Assembly: GCF_022347685.1 (NCBI RefSeq)
Contig: NZ_JAKRGF010000001.1
Span: forward strand, 186,001 to 250,000
DNA length: 64,000 nt
Direction of reading: 5' to 3'
Source of the DNA: Thalassobius sp. Cn5-15
Lineage (GTDB): Bacteria; Pseudomonadota; Alphaproteobacteria; Rhodobacterales; Rhodobacteraceae
Below the pieces are notes generated by a model. The model did no database searches and was not told the origin of the DNA. It was given only the letters and a program-made list of their open reading frames with translations. Position 1 is the stretch's first letter; every line of letters begins with the position of its first letter. Shown here piece after piece: positions 1 through 21,037 of this stretch. The position numbers and the translations under genes are program-made.

Positions 1-942
1 GAAGGTCACGTGCTGTTTTCGGTCGAAAGCTATAGCGCGTATGGCGCCCTGTCGGGCCGGTCCGTTGATGACATGATCGCCGGCGCGCGGGTTGAGGTGG
101 CGCCTTACAAGAAGAACGCGATGGATTTTGTGTTGTGGAAACCCTCCACCGATGATCTGCCCGGTTGGGACAGCCCGTGGGGCCGGGGGCGCCCGGGCTG
201 GCACATTGAATGTTCGGCCATGTCCTATGAGCTGCTGGGTGCGTCCTTCGACATTCACGGCGGCGGCAACGACCTGCAGTTCCCGCACCATGAAAATGAG
301 ATCGCGCAAAGCTGCTGTGCCCACCCGCATGGCGATTTTGCCCGGTTCTGGATGCACAATGAGATGCTGCAGGTTGAGGGCAAGAAGATGTCCAAATCGC
401 TGGGCAACTTCTTCACCGTGCGCGATCTCTTGGATCAGGGCGTGGCCGGTGAGGTGATCCGCTTTGTCTTTCTGTCGACGCACTACGGTAAGCCGATGGA
501 CTGGACCGAGAAGAAGCGCGCCGAGGCGGAGGCAACGCTGTTGAAATGGCGCCGCTTGGTCGAGGGTGTCCCGGCATCCGCACCGTCTGAAGAGGTGGTT
601 GCTGCGCTGGCAGATGATCTGAACACCGCTGGGGCCATTACCGAACTGCACCGGATTGCGGGCGCAGGCGATGCGGGGATGTTGAAAGCATCGGCTGCGT
701 TGTTGGGGCTGCTCTCGGATGAGATGGGCGATTGGGTCAGCAGCGGTGACGTGGATTTGAGTGGTTTGGCTGATAAGCTGGCAGGTCTACGCGCGACCGC
801 AATGGAAACCAAAGACTTCGCCCCTGTGGATGCGCTGAAATCGGCGTTGATGGCGGCCGGTGTCGAAGTGCGGATGAGTAAGGCTGGGGTGGAACTGCTG
901 CCCGGTGCCGGATTTGACGCAGCGAAGCTGGAAGGGCTTTAA
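1..942 (+). CDS. cysS: Cysteinyl-tRNA synthetase, C-terminal part (5' truncated by window)
   Basis: Class I aminoacyl-tRNA synthetase that charges tRNA-Cys in the cytoplasm. The reading frame is open from base 1, so the N-terminus with the HIGH motif lies outside the window; 313 codons are visible. The KMSKS signature sits at 385-399. Zinc-site residues are seen in the HIEC segment and the FPHHENE segment, both typical of CysS. The C-terminal part is the helical anticodon-binding region. It is followed by a large inverted repeat before cimA. Assignment is secure; only the start is missing. Confidence 0.97.
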
Positions 943-12675: not shown

Positions 12676-14001
12676 TTACGGCTGATCCATCGGCAGCCCC
12701 GACGGCACGCTGTCCGGCACCCCAAGGCGCCCCTCAAGCGATGCCTCATCCGTCAGCGCGCCCAAGAAGGCGAGGATGGCGCGCATCTGGGCCTCTTCCA
12801 GATCAATGCCGGGCAGTTCGATGGCAGCGGCAATGTCCAGCAGTTCGACCTCATCATCAAGCGCGGCAAAATCGTTGAGGGGCAGGGGGTGCAGGCGGGC
12901 CTGTGTGCGATCATAGGTCAGCAGGCTGTCCACTGGTCCCATATGATGCAGCAGCATTGCCTCAAGGTCGGCGAAGGCCCCGGCGTGACCGTAGGGCGCG
13001 GTTTCGGTGATGTTGCGCAAGGATGGCGTGCGGAAGCGGTAGAAATCAACCAGCTGCCCCGTGACCATGTGACGACCAGTGTCGCTATAAGGCACCTCAC
13101 CTCCCTTGCCGGGACCAATCTGCGGCGTGCCGATGGCGTGGAAGTCCTGATCCGTCTGCAACAGGCCGGCGTGACAGCCCGAACATCCTGCCTGCCCATA
13201 AAACAGTGCCATGCCTTTCTGCGCCTCTTGGCTCATCGCCGTGTCATCGCCCGCCAGATAACGATCAAAGGGGCTGTTCACCGCGCGGAATTCATAGGCG
13301 ATGAATGCGGCGATGGCGTTGGCGATGTCGGGCATGGCGATGGCGCGCTCGCCCTGTAGGGCGGTGAAGCGTTCGCGGTATTCTGGGATCGCCGCCACCC
13401 GCGCGGCCAGTAACGCCCATGCCGTGAACGGGTCATTATTATGTACCGCGTCGGCGACGGGGTTTTCGCCCTCTTGTCCTGCCATTTCCTCCGGTGACAG
13501 GATCGGCAGCATTGCCTGTGCCGCCAGCACGCTATCCACCGCCCCGGGCAGCGGGCGGTCGGGGGGCATCTGGAACCCGAACGGGGCCGAGGCGTCGGTT
13601 GCGACCCGGCCATCATGAAACATCACGGTGATGTCGCTGGCGCCAAGGTTCCATAGCGCGGGCGCATTGCGCGGAATGCGCCCCGGTACGGTTTCGCCGT
13701 CGCGCAGACGACGATCAGGGCCCAGGCCGATGCCGCCATCGCCGATCGACAGTGACATGTCGTCAGAGGTGCCAAGGCTGGGATGGTGGCAGGTGACGCA
13801 GGCGACAGTGCGGTTGCCCGACAGTACGGGATCATAAAACAGCTTCTGCCCCAAAAGTACCTGCGCCAGATCTGGTTCGGGAAAGGTTGCGTGGGTCGCC
13901 GCGGCCGGTAGATCTAACAGATCCCGTTCGACTGCGTCTTCGGCCAGTGAGAGTGTGGCCGTGAGAGATGTGACGCCAAAAGCGGCGACCCAGGCTCGCA
14001 T
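12676..14001 (-). CDS. Di-haem cytochrome c peroxidase family protein
   Basis: Periplasmic di-haem protein of the bacterial cytochrome c peroxidase/MauG superfamily, 441 residues. With the ATG at 14001 the first 20 residues form a signal peptide ending near SLAED. Haem attachment sites are CVTCH (followed by HPSLG) and CSGCH. The segments LFYDPVLSGNRTVAC, RNAPALWNLG and RTPSLRNITETAPYGHAG are hallmark CCP features. It probably reduces H2O2 with electrons from soluble c-type donors or acts as a MauG-like oxidase. An extension to 14151 would precede the signal peptide and is rejected. Confidence 0.9.
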   Translation of the reverse strand: MRAWVAAFGVTSLTATLSLAEDAVERDLLDLPAAATHATFPEPDLAQVLLGQKLFYDPVLSGNRTVACVTCHHPSLGTSDDMSLSIGDGGIGLGPDRRLRDGETVPGRIPRNAPALWNLGASDITVMFHDGRVATDASAPFGFQMPPDRPLPGAVDSVLAAQAMLPILSPEEMAGQEGENPVADAVHNNDPFTAWALLAARVAAIPEYRERFTALQGERAIAMPDIANAIAAFIAYEFRAVNSPFDRYLAGDDTAMSQEAQKGMALFYGQAGCSGCHAGLLQTDQDFHAIGTPQIGPGKGGEVPYSDTGRHMVTGQLVDFYRFRTPSLRNITETAPYGHAGAFADLEAMLLHHMGPVDSLLTYDRTQARLHPLPLNDFAALDDEVELLDIAAAIELPGIDLEEAQMRAILAFLGALTDEASLEGRLGVPDSVPSGLPMDQP

Positions 14002-14157
14002 GATCAAGGGGCCGTGATTTGGCCCACAATTAGGCAATAGCAGGCGGAATTGCGGCAGCAAAGTGGTCACTTGGAAAAAATCCACATGGAATTTGGAAAC
14101 AATTGCCTCAATTTGCGCGAGATCAGCCGCGAAGGTAACGGCGGTGCGCAAGTGAAC

Positions 14158-18375: not shown

Positions 18376-18405
18376 AAAGGGTCGCCTTCGGGCGGCCCTT
18401 TTTCG
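18376..18405 (+). terminator. Intrinsic terminator of rplM-rpsI
   Basis: An 11-bp stem (18376-18386 with 18391-18401, one G-U pair) closes a TTCG tetraloop and runs into TTTTTCGTTTT. It is a textbook rho-independent terminator 24 bp after the rpsI stop. Confidence 0.92.
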
Positions 18406-18530: not shown

Positions 18531-19205
18531 ATGCGGTTGCCGTCTGCAAAATCACTGCGTCTTTACGCTGTACTGTCGGTTGTGCCTGCGGCGCTGTTGG
18601 CTGCATGGGCGCTGCTGGCGGGGCAGGGGCAGCATGTGCTGGCACACGGGCCTTTGCTGGCGAAACATCAAGGTACGGCCTGCGCCAGTTGCCATATCCC
18701 GGCGCCGGGCAGTACGCGTCAGCAGATACAGGCGGAATTGCGATATCTCACGGGGCTGCGGGCGACGCCGGTGGATTTTGGCTATCAGCCGGTGCAATCG
18801 GCGCAATGTTTGACCTGTCACGAACGGGCCAATGACCGCCACCCGATCTATCGTTTTCGCGAACCCCGATTTCGTGATGCAGCGCAGGTGGTGGAGGCGA
18901 CCAGTTGCATGGGGTGTCATTCGGAACATGGCACGGTGAAAATCAGCAGCGGCACCACCTTTTGCGCTGCCTGTCATCAGGATCTGAAGCTGAAGGCAGA
19001 TCCGATAGATGTGCCTCATATCACATTGATTAAACAGGAAAACTGGGGGAGCTGTATGACCTGTCACGACTTTCACGGCAATCATCGTTATGATGTGCCG
19101 AACCGGATGGCGGATGCGCTGCCGCTGGGATCCTTGCGCAGCTATGTGAGCGGCGGCGCTGATCCTTATGGCGGTTTCAAGCAGGTCCGCGGGCAAATGC
19201 CATGA
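18531..19205 (+). CDS. Five-haem c-type cytochrome
   Basis: A 224-residue secreted or membrane-anchored cytochrome. Residues 10-30 form an uncleaved-looking signal/anchor helix. Five CXXCH haem sites follow: CASCH 51-55, CLTCH 93-97, CMGCH 126-130, CAACH 145-149 and CMTCH 175-179. The spacing, with CMGCHSEHG, resembles doubled-CXXCH / cytochrome c3-like families. Its stop overlaps the next gene as ATGA. ATG 18531 is preceded by GGAGG; a GTG three bases earlier is possible. It probably moves electrons in the periplasm; no enzymatic domain is seen. The donor and acceptor are unknown. Confidence 0.82.
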   Translation: MRLPSAKSLRLYAVLSVVPAALLAAWALLAGQGQHVLAHGPLLAKHQGTACASCHIPAPGSTRQQIQAELRYLTGLRATPVDFGYQPVQSAQCLTCHERANDRHPIYRFREPRFRDAAQVVEATSCMGCHSEHGTVKISSGTTFCAACHQDLKLKADPIDVPHITLIKQENWGSCMTCHDFHGNHRYDVPNRMADALPLGSLRSYVSGGADPYGGFKQVRGQMP

Positions 19206-20053
19206 GTGGTCTGCGTGTGTATTCTGGGGTGATGGCGGGGTTTGCCTGTCTGGGGGTGTACCTTTTTGCCGCCGCACCGCCGCCCCTGCCGGAGGCAACG
19301 CAGGTGGCGCAATCGGGCTGCACCCGCCCCGTTGCGCAGCTGTTTGACAGTGTGAACGCGATCAATCAAGCCGCGCGGGATGTCTATACCCGCGATATCG
19401 TTGGTCCCGGATTGAAGGCGGGGTTGAAGTTCGACGAGGAGTGGCAACACCCCACAGTGGAGGCGGGGCCGCTCCCCGCGTTATTCCTGCGCCTCACCGC
19501 CGCCAAGCTGGAGGCGATGCCCATTCGCCTTGGCCTTTATCTGGGATCTGATGCGCCGATCAACAAATCGAACCTGTTCAGCGATGCGCAATTGCAGCAG
19601 TTTGTCAGCGTAAAGGCCAGCCGCACCCCGGTTTTTGCAGCGGAGGAGGGCATTGGTCAGATCGCTATGTATCCCGATATTGCCGCCGCGCAGCCCTGTG
19701 TCAGCTGTCATAATGATCATGCCGACAGCCCTAAGGTGGACTGGAAACTCAACGATGTGATGGGGGCGACCACATGGCTTTACCCGCGGGCCGATGTGCC
19801 TGCGGAGGAGTATCTTGAGGCGGTGGAGGCGACGTTTCACGCCGTGGCGCTGGCCTACGGGGACTATCTGGACAAGGCGCAGGGCTTTGCCACACCGGTG
19901 CGCTTTGGCGATGCATGGCCTGTGGTTGGGCAGGCACAGCTGGTTTTGCCGGATCGGGCCCATTTTTTGACACGTGTCCGCAAGGAGGCAGCGGCGGCGT
20001 TGGCAGTTGGGTTGCTGCCGGATCAGAACGGAGACGCGCCATGCACAGAATGA
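19202..20053 (+). CDS. Tll0287-like (DUF3365) haem-binding domain protein
   Basis: A 283-residue exported protein: an N-terminal hydrophobic helix (residues 8-25), then a domain matching the Tll0287-like/DUF3365 family. The diagnostic segment is CVSCHNDHADSPKVDWKLNDVMG (haem site at residues 166-170). Such domains have a PAS-like fold and in other bacteria occur as sensors or free periplasmic haem proteins. Here there is no kinase or cyclase fused. It overlaps the multihaem cytochrome upstream and the membrane protein downstream, so the three are co-translated. Function unassigned. Confidence 0.78.
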   Translation: MSGLRVYSGVMAGFACLGVYLFAAAPPPLPEATQVAQSGCTRPVAQLFDSVNAINQAARDVYTRDIVGPGLKAGLKFDEEWQHPTVEAGPLPALFLRLTAAKLEAMPIRLGLYLGSDAPINKSNLFSDAQLQQFVSVKASRTPVFAAEEGIGQIAMYPDIAAAQPCVSCHNDHADSPKVDWKLNDVMGATTWLYPRADVPAEEYLEAVEATFHAVALAYGDYLDKAQGFATPVRFGDAWPVVGQAQLVLPDRAHFLTRVRKEAAAALAVGLLPDQNGDAPCTE

Positions 20054-20532
20054 TCAAGACATTGCGCCGTGTGCCCTATGCAGGGGGTATTCTGTTTTCG
20101 CTGATCTGTGTGCAGGCGGCGCTATTGGGGATGGTTAATCTGCCGCTGCGGCTGAACCTGCCGCGATTTGATGTGCAGGTCGTGACCGGCTGCGCGCTAC
20201 TGGCCTGCCTGTCCGTGCAATGGGTGTTGTTTGCCAAAAGGGTGCTGCGCCAAAACCGCAACATGCGCCAGCATCTGGTGCTGCATCGGTGGTCTGGGGT
20301 GACGGTGACGCTGCTCTTTGCCGCCCATGCGATCCGCATGGGGCACTTGTGGATGTCCCTCCTGACGGTGGTGTTTTTTCTGGTCGCCCTGACCGGCGTG
20401 TTGAACCGTGAAGTGCTGGGATACCGGTCCAACCTGATCTACCTGATCTGGCTGACCTGTCATATCGGGTTGTCAGCGGCCCTGTGGCCGCTGATCGGTG
20501 TTCATATCTGGGTGGCGCTGGCCTATCAGTAG
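20041..20532 (+). CDS. Small histidine-rich membrane protein, cytochrome b-like
   Basis: A 163-residue protein with about four or five membrane segments. Histidines lie in or beside the helices at 78, 82, 96, 102, 141 and 155, a pattern compatible with bis-histidine b-haem ligation as in ferric-reductase-like or cytochrome b561-like proteins. No named family is certain. The start at 20041 has GGAGA 8 nt upstream and overlaps the previous gene by 13 bp; ATG 20050 (ATGA overlap) is an alternative. It may be the quinone-side partner of the two haem proteins. Confidence 0.65.
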   Translation: MHRMIKTLRRVPYAGGILFSLICVQAALLGMVNLPLRLNLPRFDVQVVTGCALLACLSVQWVLFAKRVLRQNRNMRQHLVLHRWSGVTVTLLFAAHAIRMGHLWMSLLTVVFFLVALTGVLNREVLGYRSNLIYLIWLTCHIGLSAALWPLIGVHIWVALAYQ

Positions 20533-20551
20533 GCTAGCGCATAGATCTGTT

Positions 20552-21037
20552 TTACCCTTGCAGAAGGCCTTCGGCTTCAACCTGCGCCCACATTTCTTCC
20601 CAGACTTTTTTCATCCGGCCTTTGTGCTTCACTGCTTTCGCGGCCTCCACATTTGCCATCATGCCATCGCCTTTGACGATGATCAGACCGGCCATGCCCA
20701 TTGCCGTGTGGGGCGTACATTTGTAGCCATAGACGCCGGGTACGGTCAGGGTCAGGTCAAAATCCTTGCTGATCTTGCTTTTCCACGGCTCCACGCCCTC
20801 GGGGATCATGCCTTTGATGGATTCACTGTTGTGACCCTTATGGACCGAGGCAAAACGCACGGTGTCGCCTGCCTCGACCACTTGGATCAGCGGCTTGAAG
20901 ATCATGCGACGTTTCTTGTCGTCGGGATCTTTGTTCAACATATCAACGGTATAGGTCTGCTGTGCCAGTGCGGGGCCTGCAACCAGCATGGCGGCACCGG
21001 CCAGAATGATCTGACGGCGATTGAGTTCGAATGTCAT
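20552..21037 (-). CDS. Pseudoazurin (type I copper protein)
   Basis: Periplasmic blue copper electron carrier, 161 residues. Residues 1-25 are a signal peptide ending ALAQQ. Copper ligands fit H69 (KGHNSE), C107, H110 and M115 (GYKCTPHTAMGM). The family C-terminal helices follow. Pseudoazurins donate electrons to nitrite or N2O reductases and to cytochrome peroxidases. It converges on the multihaem cluster with only 19 bp between stops, suggesting a shared redox theme though separate transcription. Confidence 0.93.
   Translation of the reverse strand: MTFELNRRQIILAGAAMLVAGPALAQQTYTVDMLNKDPDDKKRRMIFKPLIQVVEAGDTVRFASVHKGHNSESIKGMIPEGVEPWKSKISKDFDLTLTVPGVYGYKCTPHTAMGMAGLIIVKGDGMMANVEAAKAVKHKGRMKKVWEEMWAQVEAEGLLQG

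Follow-up and report, generated by a model that had tools for sequence, protein, structure and literature searches.

A conserved three-gene haem protein unit in Thalassobius sp. Cn5-15 as a probable transmembrane electron conduit with a possible role in nitric oxide chemistry

The window analysed here, a stretch of 64,000 nucleotides, comes from Thalassobius sp. Cn5-15 of the family Rhodobacteraceae (assembly GCF_022347685.1, contig NZ_JAKRGF010000001.1, positions 186,001 to 250,000 of the forward strand). Downstream of rplM and rpsI on the plus strand it carries a compact gene trio (18531-20532) encoding a pentahaem cytochrome c (P0001), a monohaem protein of the Tll0287-like or sCache_heme type (P0002) and a protein with several transmembrane helices (P0003). 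The first two genes overlap by 4 bp (19202-19205) and the last two by 13 bp (20041-20053). An earlier sequence-only reading of this DNA had described the same genes and overlaps, and its description is borne out by the five CXXCH motifs, the PF11845 match and the multi-transmembrane protein found here. The features of the trio are:

18531..19205, plus strand: pentahaem cytochrome c P0001, with an N-terminal membrane anchor and a periplasmic haem domain
18681-18695, 18807-18821, 18906-18920, 18963-18977 and 19053-19067, plus strand: the five CXXCH motifs of P0001, all within 18681..19067 and computed from residue numbers
19202..20053, plus strand: Tll0287-like / sCache_heme monohaem protein P0002 (PF11845 over cut-off, AlphaFold model, fold match)
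19697..19711, plus strand: CVSCH haem-attachment motif of P0002
20041..20532, plus strand: multi-transmembrane protein P0003 with a dihaem-b histidine pattern (alignment, AlphaFold model, fold matches)
20284..20328, plus strand: first H-x13-H pair of P0003, His82 and His96, invariant in 16 of 16 sequences
20461..20505, plus strand: second H-x13-H pair of P0003, His141 and His155, invariant in 16 of 16 sequences

The three genes stand together at every one of the 29 loci read that encode a trio-type Tll0287 protein. A first search gave 15 loci with a relative of the Tll0287 protein in named genomes, relatives and other groups supplied more, and one is from a plasmid. The loci (L numbers below, genomes having G numbers) belong to Rhodobacteraceae, Lysobacter, Ectothiorhodospiraceae, Methylomirabilota and Bacteroidota. 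The order is pentahaem, Tll0287, membrane protein at all of them except in Flammeovirga, where it is Tll0287, membrane protein, reductase, pentahaem. Pairwise patristic distances of the three protein trees correlate with r 0.90, 0.90 and 0.84 (28 loci, L094 being omitted since it is nearly identical to L015), and the 16 Rhodobacteraceae form a single clade in all three trees (support 1.0, 0.999 and 1.0). Because the partners adjoin at 29 of 29 loci and the gene trees correlate, the association goes beyond chance. The conservation of the gene order was a check proposed with the sequence-only reading, and by this measure the trio is a unit.

The unit is rare, being present in 7 of 295 sampled genomes of its family and, when the phylum was sampled more widely, in 3 of 398, the present genome included. 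In the phylum of G715, 7 full-length matches and one partial match were found among 95 genomes. The phylum of G719 gave 1 of 395 and the order of G720 1 of 299, in both cases the named genome itself. In named genomes of Shimia, Cognatishimia and Rhodobacteraceae the trio stands, as here, next to rpsI, and it occupies several chromosomal sites within the family, which fits a trio that was transferred or moved as a block. When a plasmid collection was searched by tblastn with P0002, P0001 and the membrane protein of Allomuricauda, each query found one record, the same Flammeovirga locus; a search for the trio in phages found none. A partial match to the trio-type Tll0287 protein was also seen at L089 / L095 (G1177), outside the Methylomirabilota loci that bear nitric oxide dismutase, and no pentahaem or dihaem-b gene is among the open reading frames listed around it.

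It is likely that P0003 holds two b haems. Spacing of histidines as two H-x13-H pairs is typical of bis-His dihaem-b proteins, and in an alignment of 16 sequences (A2) with nine invariant residues the only invariant histidines are 82, 96, 141 and 155. The partners of each pair, 14 residues apart, lie on helices 75-96 and 131-161 of the AlphaFold model, a helical bundle with a predicted local distance difference test score (pLDDT) of 81. Fold matches were obtained to superoxide oxidase, cytochrome b6 and FdnI, namely 5oc0 (Z 12.4, root mean square deviation (rmsd) 3.2, 125 aligned), 2e74 (Z 11.8, rmsd 2.9, 122 aligned) and 1kqf (Z 10.2, rmsd 3.9, 124 aligned). Since unrelated helical bundles match the fold equally well, it is the histidines that carry the argument. 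P0003 scores below the named families, with Ferric_reduct at 13.2 against 28 bits and DUF420 at 13.9 against 30.5, and none of the scanned members of this protein reached the cut-off of a Pfam family, Ferric_reduct, Ni_hydr_CYTB and DUF4405 being among those tested; the best score was DUF4405 in L021, 24.0 against 26.7 bits. The membrane protein had earlier been taken as b-type, with six histidines in or near its helices. The invariant pattern supports the former, and the 163 residues hold seven histidines, or six without His2.

The motifs of P0001 are CASCH, CLTCH, CMGCH, CAACH and CMTCH, and the protein has one N-terminal hydrophobic stretch. In an alignment of 14 pentahaem sequences (A3), 44 columns are invariant, among them the motif CHDFHGNH and six histidines outside the CXXCH motifs. 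These (His 46, 104, 133, 163, 182 and 185) are candidate second axial ligands, and judged by their number they can suffice for bis-His ligation of all five haems. Among solved structures no usable relative of P0001 was found by sequence, only a weak match to cytochrome c3 (E 0.007). In the homologue at L008 (4778-5464) the fourth haem motif reads CSACL, which is either a lost haem or an assembly error.

P0002 scores 30.1 bits with PF11845 (cut-off 24.1) and has an N-terminal hydrophobic helix and about 80 residues beyond the Cache part. C166, C169 and H170 of its haem motif are invariant in 15 of 15 sequences. The AlphaFold model has pLDDT 74, with residues 176-187 after the haem motif below 50, and its first fold match is Tll0287 itself (5b82; Z 8.4, rmsd 3.3, 130 aligned), the next match having Z 6.4. 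The haem of Tll0287 is ligated by a cysteine, which we take to be Cys46. The fold match, with range 41..202 on 27..186, puts this cysteine near Tyr62 by approximate mapping, and the Tyr62 column contains Tyr or Trp in all 15 sequences. Tyr is also found at this place in a chemoreceptor-type relative (L006) and in three proteins of the sister system described below. Sequence searches for solved relatives gave nothing usable for P0002, and likewise nothing for P0003, for the alignment profiles A1 and A2 or for a further pair of Tll0287-like proteins. By the approximate mapping, the sCache haem of P0002 appears to be without the axial cysteine of Tll0287. Excerpts of a preprint (PMC12889525) report tight nitric oxide (NO) binding for a signalling-type sCache_heme homologue without that cysteine, and no such tight binding for a redox-type protein that has it. 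The haem of P0002 may be an NO binder.

Some of the loci also reveal where the electrons could come from. Four loci, three of Lysobacter (L016, L018, L020) and one of Allomuricauda (L019), encode the pentahaem cytochrome on one open reading frame with a flavin adenine dinucleotide (FAD)/NAD(P)H-type reductase. Domain tests confirmed the [2Fe-2S] and FAD domains in L018 and L019; L016, with 3.4 kb only, starts inside the reductase at its contig end. Flammeovirga has a separate ferredoxin-NADP reductase gene between the membrane protein and cytochrome genes. Used as a query, this reductase matched L096, L019 and L018 only, a search that was not exhaustive, since the fused domains of L016 and L020 escaped it; a NirB-like query matched 0 of 29 loci. 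No reductase gene lies beside the trio in the window, an unlinked one not having been sought, and none was seen in the loci read from Rhodobacteraceae, Ectothiorhodospiraceae and Methylomirabilota. The likeliest electron donor in the present genome would be quinol.

A sister system gives a second view of the same arrangement. In G005 and G016 one fusion protein joins a NirB-like FAD/BFD-[2Fe-2S] reductase to a dihaem-b domain, which aligns with P0003 with both histidine pairs kept (hhalign probability 89.5, E 2e-6). The fusion is followed by a decahaem cytochrome, a short sCache_heme protein and a globin. The sister clusters are:

L105 3990-9161: sister cluster with the reductase/dihaem-b fusion
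L106 1759-6479: sister cluster with the reductase/dihaem-b fusion
L104 6005-9722: sister cluster with incomplete reductase and decahaem genes

A globin is present in all three. L104 also encodes a small cytochrome c, and in addition a regulator of the Rrf2 type; among named families this regulator scores highest with NsrR (109.8 bits, cut-off 182), with RirA close at 105.3. The fusion of the reductase to varying partners is strong evidence for one chain, from reductase to b haems, c haems and sCache haem.

These observations give good support to a transmembrane electron conduit, with the trio as its membrane and periplasmic portion. The dihaem-b protein would take up electrons on the cytoplasmic or quinone side and carry them over the membrane by way of its two b haems; from there they would pass along the five c haems of the membrane-anchored wire to the single c haem of the membrane-anchored sCache protein. 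The electrons would be supplied by the NAD(P)H-FAD-[2Fe-2S] reductase of the same unit in Lysobacter, Allomuricauda and Flammeovirga, and presumably by quinol or an unlinked reductase in Rhodobacteraceae, Ectothiorhodospiraceae and Methylomirabilota. If it binds NO, the sCache haem, held in the ferrous state, could reduce or otherwise dispose of periplasmic NO, or report it. We infer the direction of the electrons, the ligation of the haems, NO as terminal ligand or substrate, and the reaction product. A conduit that ends in an sCache haem handling or reporting NO is our best reading of the trio, and its NO part is unproven; we give it a probability of about 0.4.

Some neighbours of the trio point to NO. 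An NO gene is found nearby at 9 of 29 loci, as NO dismutase (Nod) at six, H-NOX with a kinase at two and an Hmp-like globin at one. The Nod genes lie beside the trio in six of seven Methylomirabilota loci (L015, L017, L090-L092, L094), and compared with 3ayf the Nod of L015 has HH changed to HN and E to Q. In L057 and L059 H-NOX and a hybrid kinase follow directly downstream (HNOB E 2e-35 and 5e-39), and the globin of Flammeovirga (L096) has Hmp as its best match. Of the 23 trio genomes, 5 have qNOR/Nod; none of these is from Rhodobacteraceae, and 3 of 3 Lysobacter are among them. The Nod query and the NO reductase comparison given below were run on 20 of the 23 trio genomes and on 47 others. 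P0001, P0002 and P0003 themselves match neither COX1 nor PF22085, that is, they are not of the haem-copper-oxidase type of cNOR, qNOR and Nod. As to the layout in Methylomirabilota, the trio follows the Nod gene or genes and a small cytochrome c (L090, L091, L092, and also L015, L017 and L094); L090-L092 have two Nod genes and, near the cytochrome c, a protein of 95 residues, which in L090 has no Pfam match.

Several observations weigh against an NO role. None of the tested NO neighbours occurs at the other 20 of 29 loci, the window included (the short L016 is one of them), and Nod is also missing near the trio of the Methylomirabilota locus L093. The present genome has no match to HNOB, NirK (over E 1e-3), NosZ, qNOR/Nod or the Nod query. 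In the family, HNOB shows no enrichment at the threshold of the search, being present in 12 of the 16 genomes with the trio and in 39 of the 47 without it, and neither does NO reductase, with 3 of the 16 and 17 of the 47. Enrichment is confined to class I HNOB (E <= 1e-31), which 12 of the 16 and 6 of the 47 genomes have (Fisher p 8e-6, rising to 0.003 when seven Shimia-like genomes are treated as a single one), by a cut-off that was fixed after the table had been seen and with 47 comparison genomes that are non-random. The Dnr/FNR-type site TTG-N8-CAA was found in 0 of 19 upstream regions of about 300 bases each; for some of these the gene start was taken from the longest open reading frame, and the region of L015 precedes the pentahaem gene and not the Nod genes. 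A sigma-70 scan gave 0 sites with 1.1 expected. The three trees have just 9 to 11 of 25 splits in common. According to the excerpted preprint, a Cys-to-Ala variant of the redox-type protein is still fast in NO release and stand-alone sCache_heme domains are assigned redox roles (PMC12889525), and since the variant still released NO fast, lack of the cysteine alone is insufficient for NO binding. The gene unit, the haem motifs, the conserved ligands, the fusions and the NO-gene neighbours are themselves plain in the sequences.

Around the trio lie two further features, given here with their coordinates:

20552..21037, minus strand: pseudoazurin (TIGR02375), convergent neighbour, probably outside the system
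18376..18401, plus strand: terminator-like hairpin after rpsI and upstream of the trio, a consensus match only

Such hairpins number 5 in the stretch against 3.6 expected. The pseudoazurin (117.9 bits, cut-off 109.85) ends 19 bases from the gene of P0003, and match and coordinates agree with the blue copper gene reported earlier as converging at this distance. A di-haem cytochrome c peroxidase / MauG-type gene (PF03150) lies at 12676-14151 on the minus strand of the window, and a similar one, read by eye, is near the trio in G002 (L053 13890-15281). The MauG-type gene of the window could be a partner of the pseudoazurin.

If NO is left aside, the trio could be a plain export conduit of the ferric reductase or small periplasmic acceptor type, driven by quinol or NAD(P)H, in which the sCache haem only hands electrons on to something soluble, for example a cytochrome, a copper protein or a metal. 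The redox roles given to stand-alone sCache_heme in the excerpts of PMC12889525 would suit this, and so would the small cytochrome c near the trio in six Methylomirabilota loci and beside the sister sCache_heme gene in L104, the pseudoazurin that adjoins the trio in this genus, and the weak, sub-threshold Ferric_reduct match of the L019 membrane protein. The candidate acceptors vary by lineage, however, whereas genes connected with NO are found next to the trio in three separate lineages, the sister system has globins, and the axial cysteine of the redox-type Tll0287 is apparently missing; we hold this explanation to be possible, if somewhat doubtful. A separate reading, a relay to copper-dependent denitrification in which the trio feeds NirK or NosZ through pseudoazurin, is very improbable. 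The convergence at 19 bp has a counterpart in G002, a genome of the same genus, and these are the only 2 of 29 loci that pseudoazurin adjoins, so it is probably a bystander and the outlet assigned to it in the sequence-only reading finds no backing. The proposed co-occurrence with denitrification genes fared no better, as only 1 of the 23 trio genomes has nirK above its cut-off (TIGR02376) and 8 have nosZ, and the present genome shows neither gene. A denitrification link through nirK, nosZ, qNOR or cNOR was searched and is unsupported for this genome.

It is also conceivable that the conduit keeps the sCache haem ferrous so that it can sense periplasmic NO or redox state and signal to a kinase or other regulator. 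The domain is the input of many sensor proteins (PMC12889525, in excerpt), the trio proteins share Tyr at the place of the cysteine with the chemoreceptor-type L006, and L057 and L059 have the H-NOX and hybrid kinase directly after the trio. Against this, of the 29 loci an H-NOX query hit 2 and an Rrf2 query 0, kinases in general not having been searched, seven haems in a row look to us more than sensing would call for, and the H-NOX-kinase pair occurs also away from the trio and in genomes that lack it. We consider a sensor quite unlikely. In several trio-bearing genomes of the family (L063, L064, L068, L072, L075, L078) the pairs found away from the trio adjoin a gene that by eye resembles a lactate-dehydrogenase-type flavoenzyme.

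A conduit with NO at its end would also allow a bolder reading, in which the trio and its sister represent an undescribed class of NO-converting enzyme, respiratory or detoxifying, with a Cache fold as periplasmic haem-c site for NO, powered by NAD(P)H or quinol through the dihaem-b protein and a penta- or decahaem wire. We think this unlikely. If true, NO conversion would need no haem-copper oxidase, both in organisms that have canonical NO reductases and in those that lack them. The three-gene set was not described in the literature searched, which was judged mostly from titles and the openings of abstracts and covered few of the subscription journals. Stand-alone sCache_heme proteins make up nearly half of a large family of unsettled role, as excerpts of PMC12889525 put it, and the trio gives them concrete partners and a testable job. 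It also suggests an electron route to periplasmic NO chemistry outside the known NO reductases, and the reductase fusions make the electron path directly testable.

P0003 resembles the bis-His dihaem-b proteins (cytochrome b6/bc1, FdnI, the superoxide oxidase CybB and the ferric-reductase domain) in its predicted helical bundle and its two histidine pairs, but unlike them it is over no Pfam cut-off and has pentahaem and sCache partners at all 29 loci. MsrPQ and the inner-membrane exporters of the CbcL and NapC types use b or c haems to deliver electrons of flavin or quinol to a haem or an enzyme in the periplasm. The trio would work alike, although these systems seem to be built from other protein families and to have another terminal module. 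In the Bradyrhizobium system of a single-domain haemoglobin and an NAD(P)H reductase we know of no multihaem cytochrome or sCache_heme protein. It appears to resemble the Flammeovirga locus in having a globin with a reductase in an NO context. NO detoxification in Bradyrhizobium is the subject of PMC4724949. With the Tll0287-like / DUF3365 / sCache_heme family (PF11845; PMC12889525) P0002 shares a score above the family's cut-off, the CXXCH motif and the Cache/PAS-like fold, and it differs in its dedicated pentahaem and dihaem-b partners, its extra C-terminal region and the apparent lack of a cysteine at the axial place. The sister operons, of which we met no description in the literature searched, are the closest parallel in that the same four functions lie in one cluster in G005 and G016 (incompletely in G013), where reductase and dihaem-b domain form one protein. 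They differ from the trio in having a decahaem cytochrome in place of the pentahaem one, a shorter sCache_heme protein, a globin and, in G013, an Rrf2 regulator.

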